DNA from: Ruminiclostridium sp.
Lineage (GTDB): Bacteria > Bacillota > Clostridia > Oscillospirales > Ruminococcaceae
Assembly: GCA_024682455.1 (NCBI GenBank)
Contig: JAIKZF010000042.1
Coordinates: forward strand, 1-46,197
DNA: 46,197 nt
Direction of reading: 5' to 3'
The notes beneath the pieces were generated by a model. It was not told where the DNA came from. It saw nothing but the letters and a program-made list of their open reading frames with translations, and ran no database searches. Numbering within the stretch: the stretch's first letter is position 1; each line of letters opens with the position of its first letter. Below are positions 9,945 through 26,425 of the stretch, piece after piece. Both the position numbers and the translations under genes were made by a program.

Positions 9945-12900
9945 TTGAGAAAAAACGTACTGAAAAAAAGCGCCCTGCGTGAGATACGCTCGACACTCAG
10001 CCGCTTCCTGTCGATCTTCGGCATAGTGGCGCTGGGCGTGGGGTTCTTCTCGGGAGTCAAGGCCGCGTCGCCGGATATGCGCGCCACAGTCGACGACTAT
10101 CTCGACGATTATCGCCTCGCGGATATGCGCATAGTCTCCACCTGCGGCTTCGACGGCGGCGATATAGCCGCAGCGCAGACGATAGATGGCGCGGAGGTCT
10201 ACCCGTCATATTTTACCGATCTGGTCTCGCACTGCGAGGGGCGCTCCCCCGCCGCGGCAAGGCTCACGTCCCTGAGCGCCGACGTTATCGGCGGCAGGGT
10301 CAACGCGCTCGTGCTCGCGTCGGGCAGAATGCCCGCGAACGAGCGCGAGTGCCTTGTGGATTCCTCCAAGATGAAGGGAGGCCCCGCGGTAGGCTCGACG
10401 GTGCGCTTCACGGCAAACGACGGCTCCGACCCCGACGATATGCTGTCCGTTTACGAGTACACGATAGTCGGAGCCGTCAACTCCCCCATGTACATCGACA
10501 AGACCACGCGCGGCAGCACCACGGTCGGCAACGGCTCGATAGAGTCGGTCTACTATATACCCGAGGAGAATTTCATCTTTGAGTACCATACCGAGCTGTA
10601 TCTGCGCTTCCCGGAGCTGGAGAGCTTCATCTGTTACAGCGACGCGTACCGCGACAGAGCGGACGCCTTTGCGGATACGGCGGAGGAGATCGGCGAAAGG
10701 CGCGCGAAGGAGCGCTATGCCGATATCGTGTCGGAGGCTGACGAAAAGCTCGCCGACGCGGAACGTGAGCTTGCGGACGCACAGAAGGAATACGACGATA
10801 AGATAGCCGACGGCGAAAAGGAGCTCGCCGACGGTGAAGCCGAAATAGCAGAGAATGAGCGGAAGCTCGCCGACGCCGAGGCGGAGATAGCAGAGAACGA
10901 GCAAAAGCTCGCCGACGCCGAGGCGGAGATAGCAGAGAATGAGCAGAAACTCATCGACGCCGAGGCGGAGATAGCCGAGAACGAACAGAAGCTCCTCGAC
11001 GCCGAGGCGGAGATAGCCGAAAATGAGCGGAAGCTCATCGACGCCGAGGCGGAGATAGCAGAGAACCGCAAAAAGCTCGAAGACGGCAGAAAAGAAACGG
11101 AAGAAGGCAGGCGAAAGCTCGAAGACGCGGAATCCGCCTACAACGACGGCCTCGCGGAATATGAGAGCGGGCTGCGTAAATATAACGACGGTCTCGCGGA
11201 ATATCAGACCAATCTTGACGAATACAACGCCCGGAAGGAGCAGCTCGCGGCGGCACGTGAGGAATTACGCGCCGGCGAGGAGGCTCTGGAGGCGGGCAAA
11301 GCGGAGCTTGAAGCCCGGAAGGCGCAGCTCACGGCTGCGAAAGCGCAGCTCGCGGCGGCGCTGGGGCTGCCGGAGCTGCCCGACGCGGCATTACAGATGT
11401 ACGCGTCGGTGCCGCAGGTCGCGCAGCTCATAGCGGCGCAGAAAGCGATAGAGGAAGCGGAGACCGAAATAGCGCGGAATGAGGCGGAGCTCGCCGCGGC
11501 AAGGCAGCAGCTCGACGAGGCGCAGGCACGGCTCGACGAGGGAGGCATACAGCTCCGGGACGCGAAATTGCAGCTCAACGCCGCGCGCATGGAGCTGGAA
11601 TCCGCGGAAAAGCAGCTCTCCGGCGCCGCCGCGGAGATAGCCGACGGAAAGGCGGAGCTGGCGGACGCGGAAGCCGAGCTTGCAGACGGCGAAAAAAAGC
11701 TCGCCGACGCGGAAGCCGAGCTTGCGGACGGCAGAAAGAAGCTGGACGACGCGAAGTCGGAGGTCGCCGACGGTTGGAAGGAACTGAACGACGCGAAGTC
11801 AGAGGTCGCCGACGGCTGGAAGGAACTGAACGACGCAAAGTCGGAAGTCTCCGACGGCAGGAAGGAACTCGACGACGGCAGGGCCGAGGTCGAGGACGGA
11901 AAAAAGGAGCTCGCCGACGCGAAGATAAAGCTGGAGGACGGCAGAAAAGAGCTGGAGGACGGCAAGACCGAGGGCGCGGAGAAGATAGCCGATGCCCGCG
12001 CGGAGCTCGACGACGCTCACAAAAAGCTCGAAGACCTGTCCGAGCCGAAATGGTACGTATTCACCCGGGACGACTACCCGGGCTACACCGAGTACGGCGA
12101 GAACGCGGACAGGATAAACAATATAGCGGCTGTATTCCCGGTGTTCTTCATCATCGTGGCTATGCTGGTCTGCCTGACCACAATGTCCCGCATGGTGGAG
12201 GAGCAGCGCGTCTGCATAGGCACGCTCAAGGCTCTCGGCTACGGGAACGGCGCGATAATCTCGAAATATATGTTCTACGCGGTATCCGCGACCCTGCTGG
12301 GCTGCGTGACAGGCTGCGGCGTGGGCATGTATCTTTTCCCGTTCGTCATAATCACCGCCTACGGAATGATGTATGACATAATCGGAATGTCGCTGAGCAT
12401 AGATATCGTGACGGCTCTCACAGCAAGCGCGGTATTCACGGCTGCTATCGCATTCACGGTATGGCTGACGGCGCGTTCGGCTCTCGCGGAGCAGGCTGCT
12501 CAGCTCATGCGCCCCAAGGCTCCGAAGAACGGCAAGCGCATACTTCTCGAACACATAACGCCGATATGGAAGCATTTCGGCTTCAGCAGCAAGGTCACCG
12601 CGCGCAATCTATTCCGCTACAAACGCAAGATGTTCATGACGGTGATAGGCATAGCGGGCTGCACCGCGCTGCTGCTGACGGGGCTTGCGCTCTACGACTC
12701 GATAAACGACATCATAGCCAAGCAGTTCGAGGACATACAAAACTATCAGGGCATACTCGCCTATGACGCGGACGGCGAGCCCGACGCTCCGGACAGGGCG
12801 GCGGCTGTCGTCTCAAAGCACGGCGGCGACAGCATAAGGCTGTATCAGAAGCTCGTCAAGGTCTCCGCAGGCGGCAGGTCGGTGAACGCGTACATTTCCG

Positions 12901-13718
12901 TTCCGTCCGAGCCGGAGCGCTTTACGGAATTTTTCGACCTGCGCAACCGCACCACCGGCGAGAAATACTCTCTCTCCGGGGACAGCATTTATCTGGACGA
13001 GAAGTCAACTCTGCTCCTCGGCGGGCTCGGACCGGGCGGCACCGCGGAGATCGAGCTCGGCGAGACGCGCCGCGTCCCCGTGACCGTTACCGCGCCTTTT
13101 GAGAACCATCCCAATCATTATATATATATGACTCCCGGAACCTACGAGAAGATCACCGGGGATAAGCCCGAATACAACGTGCTCTACTTCCGGCACAGTC
13201 TCGGAACAGGCAGAGAGCAGGACAAGCTGGGCGAGGAGCTTCTTGCCGAGGACGGCGTGCTGACGGTAAGCTTTAATTCCAACACGGTAAGGACATTCAC
13301 GGCTATGCTCGAGGCTCTCGGGCTCGTTATAGTGGTCATTATAGCGTCCGCGGGGCTGCTCGCGTTCGTCGTGACCTATAACCTGACGAATATCAACATC
13401 ACCGAGCGTATCCGCGAGATAGCGACTCTCAAAGTCCTCGGCTTCTACGATATCGAGGTGGATAAGTACATCTTCCGCGAGAATATCATATTGTCGCTGA
13501 TAGGTACCGCCGCAGGCCTCGTCCTCGGCAGATACCTTGCGACGTTCGTGATAACCACCGCAGAGGTCGATCTGGTAATGTTCGGCAGGAATATCTATCC
13601 GATAAGCTATATCGTCGCCGCAGCCGCGACCGTCCTCTTCTCCGTTCTCGTGACTTTTGCTATGCATAAGCGGCTCAGAAATGTCGATATGATCGAAGCC
13701 CTCAAGTCCGTAGAATAA
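9945..13718 (+). CDS. FtsX/MacB-like ABC permease with a giant extracytoplasmic coiled coil
   Basis: A 1257-residue protein. One membrane helix at about 19-40 is followed by an extracytoplasmic domain, then a very long Ala/Glu/Lys/Asp coiled coil (about 255-697) containing near-exact 14-residue repeats. Next come three membrane helices (about 725-845), a second half starting with one helix (about 895-918), a second extracytoplasmic domain and three last helices (about 1118-1245). This is two FtsX-type four-helix units, as in MacB/FtsX permeases, which transmit ATPase movement across the membrane rather than forming a channel. No ATPase gene is adjacent. TTG at 9945 is the start, with GGAGGA (9934-9939) 5 bases upstream inside the previous gene. 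A convergent terminator follows. Confidence 0.88.
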   Translation: MRKNVLKKSALREIRSTLSRFLSIFGIVALGVGFFSGVKAASPDMRATVDDYLDDYRLADMRIVSTCGFDGGDIAAAQTIDGAEVYPSYFTDLVSHCEGRSPAAARLTSLSADVIGGRVNALVLASGRMPANERECLVDSSKMKGGPAVGSTVRFTANDGSDPDDMLSVYEYTIVGAVNSPMYIDKTTRGSTTVGNGSIESVYYIPEENFIFEYHTELYLRFPELESFICYSDAYRDRADAFADTAEEIGERRAKERYADIVSEADEKLADAERELADAQKEYDDKIADGEKELADGEAEIAENERKLADAEAEIAENEQKLADAEAEIAENEQKLIDAEAEIAENEQKLLDAEAEIAENERKLIDAEAEIAENRKKLEDGRKETEEGRRKLEDAESAYNDGLAEYESGLRKYNDGLAEYQTNLDEYNARKEQLAAAREELRAGEEALEAGKAELEARKAQLTAAKAQLAAALGLPELPDAALQMYASVPQVAQLIAAQKAIEEAETEIARNEAELAAARQQLDEAQARLDEGGIQLRDAKLQLNAARMELESAEKQLSGAAAEIADGKAELADAEAELADGEKKLADAEAELADGRKKLDDAKSEVADGWKELNDAKSEVADGWKELNDAKSEVSDGRKELDDGRAEVEDGKKELADAKIKLEDGRKELEDGKTEGAEKIADARAELDDAHKKLEDLSEPKWYVFTRDDYPGYTEYGENADRINNIAAVFPVFFIIVAMLVCLTTMSRMVEEQRVCIGTLKALGYGNGAIISKYMFYAVSATLLGCVTGCGVGMYLFPFVIITAYGMMYDIIGMSLSIDIVTALTASAVFTAAIAFTVWLTARSALAEQAAQLMRPKAPKNGKRILLEHITPIWKHFGFSSKVTARNLFRYKRKMFMTVIGIAGCTALLLTGLALYDSINDIIAKQFEDIQNYQGILAYDADGEPDAPDRAAAVVSKHGGDSIRLYQKLVKVSAGGRSVNAYISVPSEPERFTEFFDLRNRTTGEKYSLSGDSIYLDEKSTLLLGGLGPGGTAEIELGETRRVPVTVTAPFENHPNHYIYMTPGTYEKITGDKPEYNVLYFRHSLGTGREQDKLGEELLAEDGVLTVSFNSNTVRTFTAMLEALGLVIVVIIASAGLLAFVVTYNLTNINITERIREIATLKVLGFYDIEVDKYIFRENIILSLIGTAAGLVLGRYLATFVITTAEVDLVMFGRNIYPISYIVAAAATVLFSVLVTFAMHKRLRNVDMIEALKSVE
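10836..11084 (+). repeat. Tandem 42-bp repeats, block 1, inside the permease gene
   Basis: Six consecutive units (the last partial) start at 10836, 10878, 10920, 10962, 11004 and 11046. Each encodes a 14-residue motif of the form EAEIAENEQKLxDA, exactly two heptads. The units differ at a few positions only, so recent unit duplication is likely and copy number may vary between strains. Confidence 0.9.
11661..11870 (+). repeat. Tandem 42-bp repeats, block 2, inside the permease gene
   Basis: Five units of 42 bp start at 11661, 11703, 11745, 11787 and 11829 and encode 14-residue motifs of the form ADAEAELADGxKKL or NDAKSEVADGWKEL. More degenerate copies continue to about 12035. They keep the same two-heptad period as block 1 but differ in sequence from it. 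Confidence 0.85.
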
Positions 13719-18258: not shown

Positions 18259-18756
18259 ATGAAAAAAGCAGCGATAATAATGGGAAGCGACAGCGATCTC
18301 CCGATAGTAAGAAAAGCGGCGGAGGTCCTGAAAACCTTCGGCGTGCCGTTTGAGATGCACGTTATGTCGGCGCACCGCTCTCCCGCCGAGGTCGCGGAGT
18401 TTGCGAAGAACGCCCGTGCGAACGGCTTCGGAGTGCTGATCGGAGCGGCGGGAATGGCAGCTCACCTCGCCGGGGCTCTAGCGGCGAACACCACCCTGCC
18501 GGTGATAGCTCTGCCGGTCAAGGCAAAGGCTCTCGAAGGCGTAGACGCGCTGCTCTCGTCGGTCATGATGCCCCCCGGAGTGCCGGTCGCGACAGTCGGT
18601 ATCGACTGCGCCGCGAACGCCGGATACCTTGCGGTCCAGATACTCGCGGTCTCCGACGATGAGCTTGCCGGGAAATATGAGGAGTTCAAGGCCGCTCAGC
18701 ACGCCAAAAACCTCGACGCGGACAAGAAAATGCAGGAAACTGTAAAGGAAATATAA
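18259..18756 (+). CDS. purE: N5-carboxyaminoimidazole ribonucleotide mutase / AIR carboxylase
   Basis: A 165-residue cytosolic enzyme making CAIR in de novo purine synthesis. Motifs are MGSDSDLP near the N-terminus, MSAHRSP near 41-47 with the catalytic His, and GAAGMAAHLAG near 71-81. ATG at 18259 follows AAAGGAG (18245-18251) by 7 bases; longer in-frame extensions run into the leader terminator. No purK is in the cluster, so either purK lies elsewhere or the enzyme uses CO2 directly (class II). I cannot decide the class by eye. It is first in the operon and 21 bases before purC. Confidence 0.93.
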   Translation: MKKAAIIMGSDSDLPIVRKAAEVLKTFGVPFEMHVMSAHRSPAEVAEFAKNARANGFGVLIGAAGMAAHLAGALAANTTLPVIALPVKAKALEGVDALLSSVMMPPGVPVATVGIDCAANAGYLAVQILAVSDDELAGKYEEFKAAQHAKNLDADKKMQETVKEI

Positions 18757-18777: not shown

Positions 18778-19485
18778 ATGGAAAAGAAAGAACAGCTCTA
18801 CGAAGGAAAAGCAAAGAAGGTATTCGCTACCGACGACCCCGATCTCGTGATAGTATCCTACAAGGACGACGCCACCGCGTTCAACGGTCTTAAGAAGGGC
18901 ACTATCGAGGGCAAGGGCGTCATCAACAACAAGATGACCAACTATATGTTCGGCCTGCTTGAAAAGGAGGGCGTTCCGACGCACCTCGTAAAGGAGCTCA
19001 GCGACCGCGAGACCCTCGTGAAGAAGGTCGAGATCGTACAGCTTGAGGTCATCATCAGAAACGTAGCCGCCGGCAGCTTCTCGAAGAGAATGGGCGTTGA
19101 AGAGGGCAAGGCTCTGCTCACCCCTATCCTCGAATACAGCTACAAGAACGACGACCTCGGCGACCCGTTCATCAACGACTACTACGCTCTCGCGCTGGGC
19201 ATCGCCACAAAAGAGGAGCTCGACACCATAGCAAAGTACGCGTTCAAGGTGAATGAGTTCATGCTGAAATACTTCAAGGAAATAGGCATAGACCTCATCG
19301 ACTTCAAGATCGAGTTCGGCCGCTTCAAGGGTCAGATACTCCTCGCGGACGAGATCTCGCCCGATACCTGCCGCTTCTGGGACAGCAAGACACACGAGAA
19401 GCTCGACAAAGACCGCTTCCGCAGAGATATGGGCGGAGTCGAGGACGCTTACAGGGAGATAAGAAGAAGAATTTTCGGCGAATGA
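18778..19485 (+). CDS. purC: SAICAR synthase
   Basis: A 235-residue ATP-dependent ligase joining CAIR and aspartate. Landmarks are [10 protein letters not shown] near 7-16, [17 protein letters not shown] in the middle, the DFKIEFGRF strand and [12 protein letters not shown] near the C-terminus. The length is typical of bacterial PurC. AAGGAAGGA lies 9 bases before the ATG. Its stop is 31 bases before purF. Confidence 0.96.
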
Positions 19486-19516: not shown

Positions 19517-20938
19517 ATGGGAGGTTTTTTCGGAGCAATATCCCATAAAGACTGCATCTCCGACGTATTTTTCGGGACGGATTACCATTCCCACCTCGGC
19601 ACGCGCCGCGGCGGTATGGCTGCATACGACCCGGAGTCGGGGTTCCAGAGAAGCATCCACAGCATCGAGAACTCGCCGTTCCGCACCAAGCTTGAGGACG
19701 ACGCGGCAGGTATGCGCGGAAAGGTCTGCATCGGCTGTATAAGCGATACCGACCCCCAGCCCATACTCGTGACTTCGAGGCTCGGGCTCTACGCTATATG
19801 CAGCATCGGCATCATAAACAACGCCGATAAGCTGTATGAGGAGCTGCTGAACGAGGGCTGCGCGAATTTCGAGGCTATGACCAGCGGCAGCGTGAATTCC
19901 TGCGCGCTCATCGCCGCGCTGATAGCGCAGAAGAGCAGCTTCGCCGAGGGCATAAAGTACGCGCAGGACAAGATCGAGGGCACGATGTCCCTGATGATAA
20001 TGACAAAGGACAGCCTGATCGCCGCCCGCGACAAGCACGGACGGCTGCCGATAATACTCGGCAGGAACGAGGACGGCTTCTGCCTGTCATTCGAATCCTT
20101 CGCCTACCAGAAGCTCGGCTATTCCACATACAAGGAGCTCGCCGCGGGAGAGATCGTCCGCCTGACAGCCGACGAATGCGAGGTGCTCGAAAAGGGCTCC
20201 CCCGATATGAAGATATGCACGTTCCTCTGGACTTATTACGGCTACCCGAACGCCGTTTACGAGGGAGTAAGCGTCGAGGGTATGCGCGCGAGGAACGGTA
20301 TGATACTCGCGGAGAACGACATAAAGAACGGCAACCTGCCGGACGTTGACTACGTGTGCGGAGTCCCGGACTCGGGCACTCCCCATGCCATAGGCTACGC
20401 GAACCGCAGCGGGATTCCCTTCGCAAGACCGTTCATCAAGTACACCCCCACATGGCCGCGTAGCTTCATGCCGCAGAACCAGGCCATGCGCAACAAGGTC
20501 GCGAAGATGAAGCTGATACCCGTGCATGAGCTCATCAAGGACAAGAAGCTCCTGTTCGTCGACGACAGCATAGTGCGCGGCACGCAGATGCGCGAGACCG
20601 TGGAGTTCCTCTACGAGAACGGCGCGAAGGAAGTGCACATGAGATCTGCGTGTCCGCCCATAATGTTCGGGTGCAGATACCTGAATTTCTCCCGCAGCAA
20701 CTCGGAGCTCGACCTTATCGCAAGACAGATAATACAGGAAAAAGAAGGCGACGAGGGCGTAAAATACATAGCCGAATACAGCGATTCCTCCACCGAGCGC
20801 GGAAAACACCTGCGCAGAGAGATATGCCGCCGCCTGAGACTCACCTCGCTGGAATTCCAGACACTTGAGGGAACGATCAGAGCGGTCGGGCTGCCCGAGG
20901 ACAAGCTCTGCACCTACTGCTGGACGGGAAAGCACTGA
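19517..20938 (+). CDS. purF: PurF-like phosphoribosyltransferase without glutaminase catalytic residues
   Basis: A 473-residue protein in the purine operon. The C-terminal half is an intact PRPP-binding transferase domain (LLFVDDSIVRGT, about 345-356; GVPDSGTPHAIGYA and KYTPTWPRSFMP before it). The N-terminal half has the PurF glutaminase fold in outline but starts MGGFFGAI where PurF has CGxxGI, so the nucleophilic Cys is Gly. The GHVRY motif reads GCISDTD, and the HNGN motif reads SIGIINN. Similar proteins are annotated as PurF in Bacteroides and clostridia, as I recall, so this appears to be a family rather than one mutant. It may use free ammonia or a separate amidotransferase to make phosphoribosylamine. 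GAAAGG lies upstream of the ATG. Confidence 0.85.
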   Translation: MGGFFGAISHKDCISDVFFGTDYHSHLGTRRGGMAAYDPESGFQRSIHSIENSPFRTKLEDDAAGMRGKVCIGCISDTDPQPILVTSRLGLYAICSIGIINNADKLYEELLNEGCANFEAMTSGSVNSCALIAALIAQKSSFAEGIKYAQDKIEGTMSLMIMTKDSLIAARDKHGRLPIILGRNEDGFCLSFESFAYQKLGYSTYKELAAGEIVRLTADECEVLEKGSPDMKICTFLWTYYGYPNAVYEGVSVEGMRARNGMILAENDIKNGNLPDVDYVCGVPDSGTPHAIGYANRSGIPFARPFIKYTPTWPRSFMPQNQAMRNKVAKMKLIPVHELIKDKKLLFVDDSIVRGTQMRETVEFLYENGAKEVHMRSACPPIMFGCRYLNFSRSNSELDLIARQIIQEKEGDEGVKYIAEYSDSSTERGKHLRREICRRLRLTSLEFQTLEGTIRAVGLPEDKLCTYCWTGKH

Positions 20939-21005: not shown

Positions 21006-22043
21006 ATGAAAGACAGTCATTCCGAAAGCTATAAAGCAGCCGGCGTCGACGTTACCGCGGGCTATGAAGCGGTAAGGCTCATGAAGGAGCACGTCGAGCG
21101 CACCAGGATCAAAGGCGCTATCGACAGCATCGGCGGCTTCGGAGGGCTCTTCGAGCTCGACCCGAAGGAATACGACGACCCCGTGCTCGTTTCCGGCACC
21201 GACGGCGTAGGCACCAAGATAAAGCTGGCGTTCCTGCTGGATAAGCACGATACGATAGGCATAGACGCGGTGGCTATGTGCGTCAACGATATAATCTGCT
21301 GCGGCGCAAAGCCCCTGTTCTTCCTCGATTATATCGCCTGCGGCAGGAACGAGCCTGCCAAGATAGCCTCTATCGTAAAGGGCATCGCGGACGGCTGCGT
21401 CGAGTCGGGCTGCGCGCTCATAGGCGGCGAGACCGCCGAGCACCCCGGCCTTATGCCCGAGGACGAATACGATGTGGGAGGCTTCTCCGTCGGCATCGTC
21501 AGCAAGAAGAAGATCATCGACGGCACTAAGGTAAAAGAAGGCGACGCTATCATCGGACTTGCCTCCTCGGGCGTACATTCCAACGGCTTCTCGCTGGTGC
21601 GCAAGGTCTTCGGCATAGACAGGCGCGAGGTGCTCGATGAAAAGCTCCCCGACGGCAGAACTCTCGGCGAGGCTCTTCTCACCCCGACAAAGCTCTATGT
21701 CAAGCCCGTTCTCGAACTGATGAAGAACGTCGGAGTCAAGGCTGTCAGCCACATCACGGGCGGCGGCTTCTACGAGAATATACCCCGCTCGATACCCGAG
21801 GGCTTCACGGCGCTGATAAACAAGGGGAGCTGGGAGGTGCCATACATCTTCAGACTCCTTCAGGAGCGCGGCGGCATAAGCGAGCACGATATTTTCAATA
21901 CCTTCAATATGGGTATCGGTATGTCGATAGTCGTTTCCGCGGACGAAGCGGACAAGGCGGTCGGAACCCTGAAAAGCTGCGGCGCGGAAGCCTGCGTCAT
22001 CGGTAAGATCGGCAGAGCCGACAAAGCTATTATAATAGAATAA
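21006..22043 (+). CDS. purM: Phosphoribosylformylglycinamidine cyclo-ligase (AIR synthetase)
   Basis: A 345-residue ATP-dependent enzyme closing the imidazole ring to give AIR. Motifs are [13 protein letters not shown], the [19 protein letters not shown] segment, [11 protein letters not shown] and the C-terminal [13 protein letters not shown]. The length is normal. GAAAGGAATAAC precedes the ATG. It is 67 bases after purF and 10 before purN. Its substrate FGAM comes from PurL, which is not in the window. Confidence 0.96.
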
Positions 22044-22053
22044 GGAAACGGAC

Positions 22054-22680
22054 ATGAAAAATATAGTTGTTCTGGTATCCGGAGGAGGCACCAACCTGCA
22101 GGCTCTCATCGACGCGGAAAAGCGCGGCGGACTGGGCGGCGGCAAGATCACCTGCGTGATATCATCGAAGCCCGACGCTTACGCGCTCAAACGGGCGAAG
22201 AACGCGTTCATACGGACAAAGGTGCTCGAAAGAAAGGAATTCCCCGACATAGCCGCTTACAGCAAGGCAATGGCGGAGCTCCTCAAGGAATGTGAGGCAG
22301 ATCTTGTCGTTTACGCGGGCTTTATGACGATACTCGACGAGCAGGTCTGCGGGGCTTTCCCGTATAAGATGATAAACGTTCACCCGGCGCTTATCCCCTC
22401 GTTCTGCGGCAAGGGCTACTACGGCCTGCGCGTGCATGAGGAGGCGCTGAAAAAGGGCGTCAAGATCACCGGAGCCACGGTGCATTTCGTTACCGAGGAA
22501 TGTGACTGAGGCCCCATAATCCTCCAGAAAGCTGTCGATGTAAAGAACGGAGACACACCCGAGATACTCCAGCGCAGAGTAATGGAGGAAGCGGAATGGA
22601 AGATACTGCCCGAGGCGGTAAGGCTGTTCTGCGAGGACAGGATCAAGGTAGAAAACGGCGTAACGATCGTTAGTGAATGA
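22054..22680 (+). pseudogene. purN: Glycinamide ribonucleotide formyltransferase interrupted by an in-frame TGA
   Basis: PurN transfers formyl from 10-formyl-THF to GAR. The frame opens normally (VLVSGGGTNLQALI) and holds the catalytic Asn and His in INVHPALIP and the Asp in VTEECD. The next codon (22507-22509) is TGA. E. coli PurN has DGGP here, so GGA to TGA is the simplest change. The same frame continues without interruption as GPIILQKAVDV to a TGA at 22678-22680, which would give 208 codons in all, the normal PurN size. The 151-residue product would lose the whole C-terminal part. Options are a true nonsense mutation, readthrough or a base error. Other genes here end in TGA, so recoding is unlikely. 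Confidence 0.85.
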
Positions 22681-22692
22681 AAGGAAAGAATC

Positions 22693-23409
22693 ATGGAAAA
22701 AATCGAACTGACAAAGGAACTCAACAGCCTCGAATACCACGGCAGAGGCATTATCCTCGGCAAATCGCCCGACGGCAAGAAAGCGGTCATAGCCTACTTC
22801 ATCATGGGCAGGAGCGAGAACAGCCGCAACCGCGTGTTCGTCGAAGACGGCGAGGGCATACGCACACAGGCGTTCGACCCGTCGAAGATGACCGACCCGC
22901 ACCTTATCATATACGCTCCCGTAAAGGTGCTCGGCACAAAGACGATAGTTACCAACGGCGACCAGACCGACACGATCTATGAGCAGATGGACAAGCAGAT
23001 GACCTTTGAGCAGGCTCTGCGGTTCCGCGAGTTCGAGGACGACAAGCCCAACTACACACCCCGCATCTCCGGCATAGTACACGCCGACGGCGGCAATATG
23101 AACTACGCCCTGCACATAATCAAGAGCAACGACGGCGACCCGTCCTGCTGCATACGCAACACCTACGCGTACAGCTGCCCCATGGACGGCGAGGGACGCT
23201 TCATACATACCTACAAGGGCGCGGGCGACCCGCTGCCGAGCTTTGAGGGCGAGCCCAAGCGCGTCACCATACCCGATCTCGGTATCGACGACTTCACGAA
23301 GCTCGTATGGGACAACCTCAACAAGGACAATAAGGTATCGCTGTTCACAAGATACATCGACATCGGAAACGGCAAATACGAATCCCGCATAGTAAACAAG
23401 AACGTCTGA
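22693..23409 (+). CDS. purO: IMP cyclohydrolase, archaeal PurO type
   Basis: A 238-residue protein of the PurO family (PF07826), which closes FAICAR to IMP. It is unrelated to the cyclohydrolase domain of PurH. Recognisable stretches are YHGRGIILGKSPDG near 18-31, AYFIMGRSENSRNR near 37-50 and PRISGIVHADG near 135-145. ATG follows AAAGGAAAG. It stands directly before a stand-alone AICAR formyltransferase, so the two genes together replace bifunctional PurH. PurO was first described in archaea; I recall clostridial homologues but cannot check the distribution here. Confidence 0.88.
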   Translation: MEKIELTKELNSLEYHGRGIILGKSPDGKKAVIAYFIMGRSENSRNRVFVEDGEGIRTQAFDPSKMTDPHLIIYAPVKVLGTKTIVTNGDQTDTIYEQMDKQMTFEQALRFREFEDDKPNYTPRISGIVHADGGNMNYALHIIKSNDGDPSCCIRNTYAYSCPMDGEGRFIHTYKGAGDPLPSFEGEPKRVTIPDLGIDDFTKLVWDNLNKDNKVSLFTRYIDIGNGKYESRIVNKNV

Positions 23410-23432
23410 ACGGACAACGGAGGTATACGAAA

Positions 23433-24608
23433 ATGAAAGAACTCGAACTCAAATACGGCTGCAACCCCAACCAGAAGCCCTCCAGGATCTTCATGGAGAA
23501 CGGCGAGCTCCCGATAGAGGTGCTCAACGGCAAGCCCGGCTACATCAACTTCATGGACGCGTTCAACGGCTGGCAGCTCGTAAAGGAGCTGAAAAAGGCG
23601 ACCGGACTTCCGGCCGCGACATCGTTCAAGCACGTTTCCCCTGCCGGCGCGGCTGTGGGTCTGCCGCTGACCGATACTTTAAAGAAGATATACTGGGTGG
23701 ACGATCTCGGCGAGCTCTCTCCCCTTGCCTGCGCTTACGCGAGAGCGCGCGGAGCCGACAGAATGTCCTCCTACGGCGACTTCATCTCCCTGTCCGATGT
23801 CTGCGACGTCCCCACGGCGAAGATGATACAGCGCGAGGTCTCGGACGGCGTGATAGCTCCCGGCTACGAGCCCGAGGCTCTTGAGATACTCAAGTCCAAG
23901 AGAAAGGGCACCTACAATATCATAAAGATAGACCCCGACTACACCCCCGCTCCCATCGAGCGCAAGCAGGTGTACGGCATCACCTTCGAGCAGGGCAGAA
24001 ATGAGCTCGTTATCAACGACGAGCTGTTCGCGAACATCGTTACCGAAAACAAGAACCTCACCGAGGACGCAAAGCGCGACCTCGCTATCGCTATGATAAC
24101 CCTCAAATACACTCAGTCCAACTCCGTAGCCTACGCGTGCGGAGGTCAGGCTATCGGTATCGGTGCGGGTCAGCAGTCGAGAATACACTGCACACGCCTC
24201 GCCGGCACAAAGGCGGACAACTGGTATCTCCGCCAGTCGCCGCAGGTGCTCGGATTGCAGTTCGTTGACGATATCAGACGCGCCGACAGAGACAACGCTA
24301 TCGACCTCTACATCGGCGAGGACTATATGGACGTGCTCGCTGAGGGCGCATGGCAGAACATCTTCAAGGTAAAGCCCGACGTATTCACCGTAGAGGAGAA
24401 GAAAAAGTGGCTCTCCACGATGAAGGGCGTTTCCCTCGGCTCGGACGCGTTCTTCCCGTTCGGCGACAACATCGAGCGCGCTCACCGCAGCGGCGTTGAG
24501 TTCATAGCGCAGCCCGGCGGCTCGATACGCGACGACAATGTCATAGAGACCTGCAACAAGTACGGCATCGTAATGTCGTTCACGGGTATCAGACTGTTCC
24601 ACCACTGA
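23433..24608 (+). CDS. purH: Stand-alone AICAR formyltransferase (formyltransferase part of PurH)
   Basis: A 391-residue protein matching the AICARFT bienzyme domain only; the N-terminal MGS-like IMP cyclohydrolase domain of PurH is absent. The catalytic Lys-His pair is Lys66-His67 in TSFKHVSPAG. Other landmarks are QSNSVAYACGGQAIGIGAGQ and the C-terminal FFPFGDNIERAHRSGV and IAQPGGSIRDD. It formylates AICAR from 10-formyl-THF, and PurO upstream completes IMP. GGAGGT precedes the ATG. Some authors call such proteins PurV. Confidence 0.9.
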   Translation: MKELELKYGCNPNQKPSRIFMENGELPIEVLNGKPGYINFMDAFNGWQLVKELKKATGLPAATSFKHVSPAGAAVGLPLTDTLKKIYWVDDLGELSPLACAYARARGADRMSSYGDFISLSDVCDVPTAKMIQREVSDGVIAPGYEPEALEILKSKRKGTYNIIKIDPDYTPAPIERKQVYGITFEQGRNELVINDELFANIVTENKNLTEDAKRDLAIAMITLKYTQSNSVAYACGGQAIGIGAGQQSRIHCTRLAGTKADNWYLRQSPQVLGLQFVDDIRRADRDNAIDLYIGEDYMDVLAEGAWQNIFKVKPDVFTVEEKKKWLSTMKGVSLGSDAFFPFGDNIERAHRSGVEFIAQPGGSIRDDNVIETCNKYGIVMSFTGIRLFHH

Positions 24609-24746
24609 TGACGCACTTCCGGAGGAAGTGATATCATGCCGGGAGCCGGCGTATATGGCGGATGCTTCATAGCGCGGGCTTTCGGGCAGTCTGTGTTCAC
24701 ATTTCCGCGCCCGGAACATAGAGAGCGAGAAAGGAATTGCTGCACA

Positions 24747-25130
24747 ATGAGCTACTGCAAGGACATATACCCCGACCTGTACGAGTATCTGCGCAACAAG
24801 AAGGGCGTGGACATCGACTATCAGGAGCAGTGGGGCTGGACGCGCTTCATGCTGCACGGCAAGATGTTCGCGGCGATATGCGCCGACGGAACGGACGACG
24901 CCCTGCTCAACATCAAGGCTCCGCCCGACTACAACGACATGATACGCAGGCTGCATGAGGACATAAACGAGGGCTACTATATGAATAAGCAGCACTGGAA
25001 CAGCGTGAAGCTCACGGGTACGGTGCCGTATGAGGTAGTCCGGGATATGTGCGACCGCGGCTACAATGCGGTGCTGCGGCATTTCCCGAAAAAGGTGCAG
25101 CACGAGATTTTAGAGGACATCTGGGCATAA
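24747..25130 (+). CDS. MmcQ/YjbR family protein
   Basis: A protein of about 127 residues with the YjbR/CyaY-like fold signature: WGWTRFMLHGKMFAAI, then LLNIKAPPDY, then YYMNKQHWNSVKLTG and VPYEVVRDMCDRGY. The family was proposed to bind DNA, but its function is unsettled. ATG at 24747 has AAAGGA 11 bases upstream and gives the usual family length. An in-frame ATG at 24636 has a stronger GGAGGAAG 9 bases upstream but adds 37 residues that look non-coding. Its place between the formyltransferase and purD gene is odd for a YjbR protein and hints at a purine-related role, which is inference. Confidence 0.8.
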   Translation: MSYCKDIYPDLYEYLRNKKGVDIDYQEQWGWTRFMLHGKMFAAICADGTDDALLNIKAPPDYNDMIRRLHEDINEGYYMNKQHWNSVKLTGTVPYEVVRDMCDRGYNAVLRHFPKKVQHEILEDIWA

Positions 25131-25144
25131 GGAGGACTTTTAAA

Positions 25145-26425
<1,281 letters not shown>

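Follow-up and report, generated by a model that had tools for sequence, protein, structure and literature searches.

In general teaching, PurF is the regulated entry point to purines and works with glutamine, and the locus described here raises the question of what stands at that entry point when the residues for glutamine use are gone. On the 46,197-nucleotide stretch of Ruminiclostridium sp. DNA that was analysed (contig JAIKZF010000042.1, assembly GCA_024682455.1; hereafter the window), the place between purC and purM is filled by a forward-strand open reading frame (19517..20938) for a PurF-like protein, PFL, of 473 aa with the N-terminus MGGFFGAI. The original prediction, made from this single stretch, held that PFL makes phosphoribosylamine (PRA) from free ammonia or with the help of a partner amidotransferase, or has another role with PRPP, and that it may represent an overlooked family. 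Here we ask which of these readings best fits the protein family and the genomes that carry it.

Lost glutaminase residues and an intact PRPP site

A mis-called start that conceals an upstream Cys was considered and rejected. The interval from the upstream stop to 19517 offers no ATG, GTG or TTG, its 18 in-frame codons include none for Cys, the ATG is preceded by a GAAAGG stretch whose end is 11 nt away, and conservation in the family alignment begins at residue 1. With its start sound, the Cys-less PFL differs from some archaeal PurFs, the Cys of which was hidden by a mis-called start according to excerpts of PMC3261824. A decaying pseudogene is likewise ruled out by the full length of the protein and its strong conservation across 118 distinct PFLs.

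PFL is about 30-38% identical to canonical PurFs. Against TIGR01134, the NCBIfam PurF equivalog, it scores 188.5 bits where the curated cut-off is 350, four other members of the family score 164-191 bits, and no NCBIfam model reaches its own cut-off on PFL. Within Pfam, GATase_7 is over its cut-off (33.1 vs 25 bits) and the phosphoribosyltransferase model falls below its own. The two-domain fold of the PurF superfamily (Ntn-type plus phosphoribosyltransferase) was recovered by an AlphaFold model, PDB sequence searches and Foldseek. The model, built on a 21-sequence alignment, has a mean pLDDT of 82.6, with local values below 50 in portions of the catalytic and PRPP loops (residues 307-319, 326-331 and 352-356). 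Its 17 best Foldseek matches are all PurF chains, led by 1ao0 and 1gph, with E values down to 7.5e-34.

In order to compare the active sites, we aligned 118 distinct full-length PFLs at least 45% identical to that of the window (shorter or broken matches were dropped) with 53 distinct full-length PurFs that share 44% identity or more with the Cys-bearing PurF of the window's genome, taking E. coli numbering from an alignment with the E. coli PurF gene itself (L209). Besides Cys1, we take Arg73, Asn101 and Asp127 as residues that serve glutamine in PurF. The Cys1 position holds Cys in 53/53 canonical PurFs, and Gly in 112 and Ser in 6 of the 118 PFLs; in the window it falls on Gly2 (codon 19520..19522, + strand), just as the original prediction had read the MGGFFGAI start. 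That prediction had also read the GHVRY motif as GCISDTD (residues 73-79; 19733..19753, + strand). Arg73 is indeed missing, but by deletion and not by substitution: none of the PFLs (0/118) retains the segment that holds Arg73, Tyr74 and Thr76, and GCISDTD is a flank of the gap. The reading of HNGN, the oxyanion-hole motif, as SIGIINN (residues 96-102; 19802..19822, + strand) was borne out, with Asn101 falling on Ile97 and Gly102 kept as Gly98. Across the family the Asn101 position is Val, Ile or Thr (118/118). Asp127, which is Ser123 in the window, is replaced by Ser, Gly, Lys, Arg or Asn among the 115 of 118 PFLs read there. Cys1, the Arg73 segment and Asn101, the positions at which the original prediction had proposed to check PFL by alignment, are thus absent together in 118/118 PFLs vs 0/53 canonical PurFs, so this loss of residues is not due to chance. 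Cys13 also fails as a substitute nucleophile and was rejected because its position is only nearly invariant (Val in L030).

The PRPP half of the protein is kept. The loop VDDSIVRGT (residues 348-356; 20558..20584, + strand), which had been described as intact from the one sequence, has proved so throughout the family, both Asp and the Arg of DDSIVRG being invariant in 118/118 PFLs. The same holds for Lys326 and Arg332 of the catalytic loop. All four cysteine positions of the Bacillus Fe-S type are also Cys in 118/118, the cluster itself being predicted; in the window they are Cys234 (20216..20218), Cys386 (20672..20674) and Cys465 with Cys468 (CTYC, 20909..20920), all on the + strand. Fifty-five positions are near-invariant in PFL yet different in PurF, and they include the family-specific flexible catalytic loop KYTPTWPRSF (residues 308-317; 20438..20467, + strand), in which Lys308 and Arg315 are kept. 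They also include a rebuilt stretch around the old glutamine site, with Asp22, His24, Leu27 and Thr29; Asp22, His24 and Thr29, together with Arg56 and Asp77, are taken to line the rebuilt pocket. The N-terminal domain is as conserved as its counterpart, with a mean entropy of 1.27 bits for PFL vs 1.28 bits for canonical PurF.

A tree of the 118 PFLs and 53 PurFs is divided into the two groups by a branch with support 100. When 30 of each were analysed together with E. coli PurF, support was 100 for the PFL side and 68 for the PurF side. In these trees the PFLs are a single clade. Their distance to clostridial PurF, at 7.3 changes per column, is about twice that of E. coli PurF (3.6), and rooting of the PFL clade by the E. 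coli protein is unsure because long branches meet.

The shared operon slot

In the window PFL follows purE (18265..18756; TIGR01162 over cut-off) and purC (18778..19485; TIGR00081 over cut-off), and precedes purM (21006..22043; TIGR00878 over cut-off) and purN (22054..22509; over its curated cut-off). Further along lie genes for a PurO-type IMP cyclohydrolase (22693..23409; PF07826) and a stand-alone AICAR formyltransferase (23433..24608; PRK07106), a gene inside the operon for a YjbR/MmcQ family protein (24702..25130; by family search) and purD (25139..26425; TIGR00877 over cut-off), the product of which would use PRA. All are on the + strand. The function of PurH is therefore split in this operon (22693-24608) between a cyclohydrolase and a separate formyltransferase. 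The window's purN is shortened by an in-frame stop and ends at 151 aa. The stop sits at a conserved place, same-frame similarity to a 215-aa PurN (L035) continues beyond it, and purN is intact in the nearest relative (G007, L233); it is either a real nonsense allele or an assembly error.

Gene maps of further loci were redone with codon usage, as longest-ORF maps had been misled by antisense ORFs; short or odd genes may be missed in them. A set of 80 named loci comprises the best of 596 candidates, a choice that biases it to close kin. PFL stands without PurF between purE or purC and purM in 58 of the 80 and in tandem with PurF in 14; purM adjoins PFL in a further 3 and purE in a further 2. 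A purine gene thus adjoins PFL in 77/80 named loci, and the three without a recognised purine neighbour are L056, which begins near a contig end, L103 and L111. Within the window's genus, three PFL-less members (L117, L118, L127) hold PurF alone at the same place, so that PFL and PurF share one operon slot, singly or in tandem. In L144 and L145 the operon runs uninterrupted across the site where PurF stands in L154 and L155.

Outer lineages present a different picture: PFL is for the most part not near the purine genes that were sought, and a second PurF match accompanies it in every case. Among 17 outer loci, purC adjoins PFL in 2 and an AICAR formyltransferase gene is at most about 5 kb away in 2; carB stands immediately before PFL in 5. 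Family f41 (L160, L163, L194, L195 and L203; 5 loci in 4 genomes) has this order of carB then PFL, outside a purine operon. The carB gene encodes the large subunit of carbamoyl-phosphate synthase, and the L163 copy was confirmed by family search. Pyrimidine genes, recognised by eye (carB, pyrK, pyrD, pyrF, pyrE and a pyrB-like gene), also lie just upstream of the PFL purine operon in about ten loci (e.g. L054, L060 and L146).

The window's genome carries a canonical, Cys-bearing PurF besides PFL. Its gene comes immediately after one for glutamine synthetase, which it overlaps by 4 nt (L001, 718-3323), and this order was found in 5/5 cases examined, namely the window's genome and its near relatives L135, L136, L138 and L139. 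Both glutamine synthetase copies scanned have the Gln-synt_C-ter domain. From this coupling, seen in the window's lineage, we infer two isozymes for two nitrogen states.

Genomes with PFL as the only PurF found

A second, Cys-bearing PurF, for which the original prediction had proposed a search, was therefore found in the window's own genome, and none was found in many of its relatives. PFL is common among 60 relatives, several of which show PFL alone. When 44 of the 60 were searched together with the window's genome using the PurF profile, PFL was present in 30/45, of which 11 were without PurF over cut-off, and 13 of the 15 PFL-less genomes had PurF. The other two (G021 and G056) have PurD and no PurF over cut-off; having neither enzyme, they imply that some PurF absences will be gaps in metagenome-assembled genomes (MAGs), which make up most of the genomes searched.

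The order to which PFL belongs was then sampled evenly, with 148 genomes in all, requested at a completeness of at least 97% apart from the window's own, which is among them at 86%. PFL was present in 80, 63 gave only weaker matches, presumably of the canonical kind, and 5 gave none. In 27 of the 80 PFL genomes the single match is PFL (rows counted by eye), while the other 53, the window's own included, carry a second match of the PurF kind that is not profile-confirmed in every case. A recheck of 23 of the 27 PFL-only genomes with TIGR01134 returned 0/23 over cut-off, and the earlier profile search had given no TIGR01134 match over cut-off in the remaining 4. PFL is the sole PurF-profile match in 6 of the 23, in a search that distant relatives may escape. 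PurD and PurL are each over cut-off in 26 of the 27 (23/23 and 3/4), the PurL search having covered these 27 of the 80 PFL genomes. No other PurF is thus found over cut-off in many PFL genomes with PurD and PurL, and because PFL-only genomes exist, PFL is not merely accessory.

The one exception for both enzymes, G055 (98% complete; L033, L150), has a Ser2-type PFL beside sfsA and no PurD, PurL or PurF over cut-off, so the role of PFL may be a different one in this genome. G458, of the same genus, has both PurD and PurL.

From the named loci, 46 were taken for a search of their genomes, which may overlap with the order sample. Of these 46 genomes 26 are without PurF over cut-off, and PurL is present in 25 of the 26; G373 is without PurL over cut-off. 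Among the PFL-only genomes is Evtepia gabavorous KLE1738, the record of which is not labelled as a MAG. Many named loci come from gut, rectum or colon, according to record titles. In a phylum-wide sample of 299 genomes, PFL occurs in 18 and a second PurF match accompanies it in 18/18, so that the loss of PurF characterises the home order of PFL and does not extend to every lineage.

Nitrogen source, rival readings and precedents

Where PurD, PurL and the operon are present and a further PurF is not, PRA must still be supplied, and that PFL is the sole PurF found in 27/80 PFL genomes of the order sample, 26 of them with PurD and PurL, favours PRA formation by PFL. To look for a partner, we clustered the unlabelled genes that lie on the strand of PFL and up to 7 kb from it, 362 in total at 100 loci. 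The commonest clusters were PurL-like (32 loci), pyrimidine-pathway-like, and a formate/nitrite transporter (11 loci); the transporter and one carB were named by family search and the rest by eye. No lone glutaminase-like group recurs beside PFL in this set, which favours free ammonia over a dedicated partner. Taken together, the genomes support the original prediction in its first form, that of PRA made from free ammonia by an overlooked family.

We consider it probable that PFL is a PurF descendant that makes PRA from PRPP and free ammonia, feeding PurD. The reaction would be PRPP + NH3 -> PRA + PPi, and the former glutaminase domain would neither bind nor split glutamine; it may persist for structural reasons, as a shield over the PRPP site, or because it has gained a new part in regulation or in guiding ammonia. 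PFL would then carry out the committed step of purine synthesis in PFL-only genomes. Where a Cys-bearing PurF is also present, the two would act as nitrogen-status isozymes, PFL under ammonia-rich and PurF under ammonia-poor conditions. Evidence that weighs against this reading comes from G055, from the missing PurL of G373, from the 53/80 PFL genomes with a second match and from the outer lineages. The gut and rumen are ammonia-rich. Many gut bacteria probably possess, as far as sequence comparison can tell, a conserved step-one purine enzyme that dispenses with glutamine and uses free ammonia instead. We lean, if only slightly, towards the wider view that across a large part of the gut Clostridia PurF has given way to a PRA synthase independent of glutamine, which puts the committed step on environmental ammonia, and that, where both are kept, the attachment of PFL to the purine operon and (in the window's lineage) of PurF to glutamine synthetase amounts to a nitrogen-status switch. 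Loss of glutamine use seems confined to step one, as PurL keeps GICNG, presumably the motif of its own glutaminase, in 4/4 PFL-only genomes examined.

Amidotransferase subunits of other systems can be encoded apart from their synthase, and PFL could in the same way make PRA with ammonia from a glutaminase encoded elsewhere, or from canonical PurF in a mixed complex, as the 14 tandem loci might suggest. That none recurs next to PFL (the family search covered part of the unlabelled genes), that 27/80 PFL genomes are without PurF over cut-off, and that PFL alone matches the PurF profile in 6/23 PFL-only genomes, distant relatives aside, make such a partner unlikely. PFL might instead catalyse nothing and serve as a pseudoenzyme regulator of PurF or PurD, with PRPP or nucleotides as its ligands. 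The new near-invariant residues at the old glutamine site would suit this role, as would the co-occurrence of PurF in the window's genome and of a second PurF-kind match in 53/80 PFL genomes; we regard it as quite improbable, since 26 genomes that have PurD and PurL would then possess no known source of PRA and all checked residues of the PRPP site and catalytic loop are kept in 118/118.

The possibility that PFL runs another PRPP-dependent reaction, with PRA in PFL-only genomes arising non-enzymatically from ribose 5-phosphate and ammonia, has some chemical basis, as such formation is known in Salmonella according to excerpts of PMC3485032. The persistence of PFL in G055 without PurD or PurL, and its place after carB in one family, could be read likewise. 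In the same excerpts, PurF-independent mechanisms so far fall short of the purine requirement of Salmonella, and with a purine gene beside PFL in 77/80 named loci we give this reading a very low probability. It is also hardly credible that the PFL-only genomes are products of assembly gaps, with canonical PurF simply missing from MAGs. Most of the genomes are MAGs, and 2/15 PFL-less genomes do have PurD and no PurF; but PurF is absent from 27/80 PFL genomes when PurL and PurD are each absent from just 1 of those 27, the operon is unbroken across the PurF site in L144 and L145, and E. gabavorous KLE1738 is among the PFL-only genomes.

Synthesis of PRA from ammonia by PFL would require no new chemistry, since replacement of Cys1 by Ala or Ser in E. 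coli PurF abolishes the use of glutamine and leaves that of ammonia, as reported in excerpts of PMC3261824. Those mutants are laboratory-made, with a glutamine site otherwise intact, whereas PFL is a natural, long-diverged clade. The closest relative in structure is the Fe-S type PurF of Bacillus subtilis (TIGR01134; 1gph, 1ao0), which shares with PFL the two-domain fold, PRPP loop, catalytic Lys and Arg, four Fe-S cysteines and operon position; PFL differs from it in being without Cys1, the Arg73 segment and Asn101, in having Ser for Asp127, and in its own KYTPTWPRSF loop. Ammonia-dependent isozymes beside a glutamine-using relative or counterpart are familiar from NH3-dependent NAD synthetase and AsnA, which follow the same ammonia logic as proposed for PFL, although folds and pathways differ.

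The nearest precedent is the crenarchaeal PurF' described in 2011, a PurF paralogue without the N-terminal Cys, encoded near purine genes, for which ammonia dependence was offered as one possibility (excerpts of PMC3261824). According to the same excerpts, the crenarchaea studied each pair a single PurF with a single PurF', and the Cys position of many PurF' is taken by Ala or Val. By that description PFL resembles PurF' in being without the N-terminal Cys, and is set apart by having Gly or Ser there, by occurring in Clostridia and by often being alone: the pattern of one of each per genome does not hold for the 27/80 PFL genomes without PurF over cut-off. In the open-access literature searched we found no report of a lone Cys-less bacterial PurF and, the archaeal suggestion apart, no ammonia-type step-one purine enzyme. 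PFL-only organisms make the 2011 idea testable where the Cys-less protein stands alone. By the curated profile they look PurF-deficient despite a filled operon slot. If our reading is correct, metabolic models of rumen and gut Clostridia would change in the nitrogen source of purine N9 and in ammonia demand, and glutamine analogues would be predicted not to block the first purine step of PFL-only Clostridia.

Two minor observations were made along the way. A gene of about 200 aa between purM and purN, the size of a class I glutaminase, was tried as a partner and turned out to encode the formate/nitrite transporter. It occupies this place in 11 of the 99 loci that have both genes, some sharing a genome (L065, L081, L088, L093, L096, L106, L107, L109, L113, L146 and L149); PF01226 was found in 6/6 tested and all 11 cluster together. 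The 7 of these loci whose genomes were searched for PurF all belong to PFL-only genomes. The transporter may bring in formate that the formyl steps use, or else a different small substrate. Elsewhere in the window, 9945-13718 encodes a 1257-aa protein, by eye an FtsX-type permease, that has a very long coiled coil of units, nearly repeats of one another, of the DAEAEIAENE type; its matches to SMC-like and ABC-permease profiles are weak.
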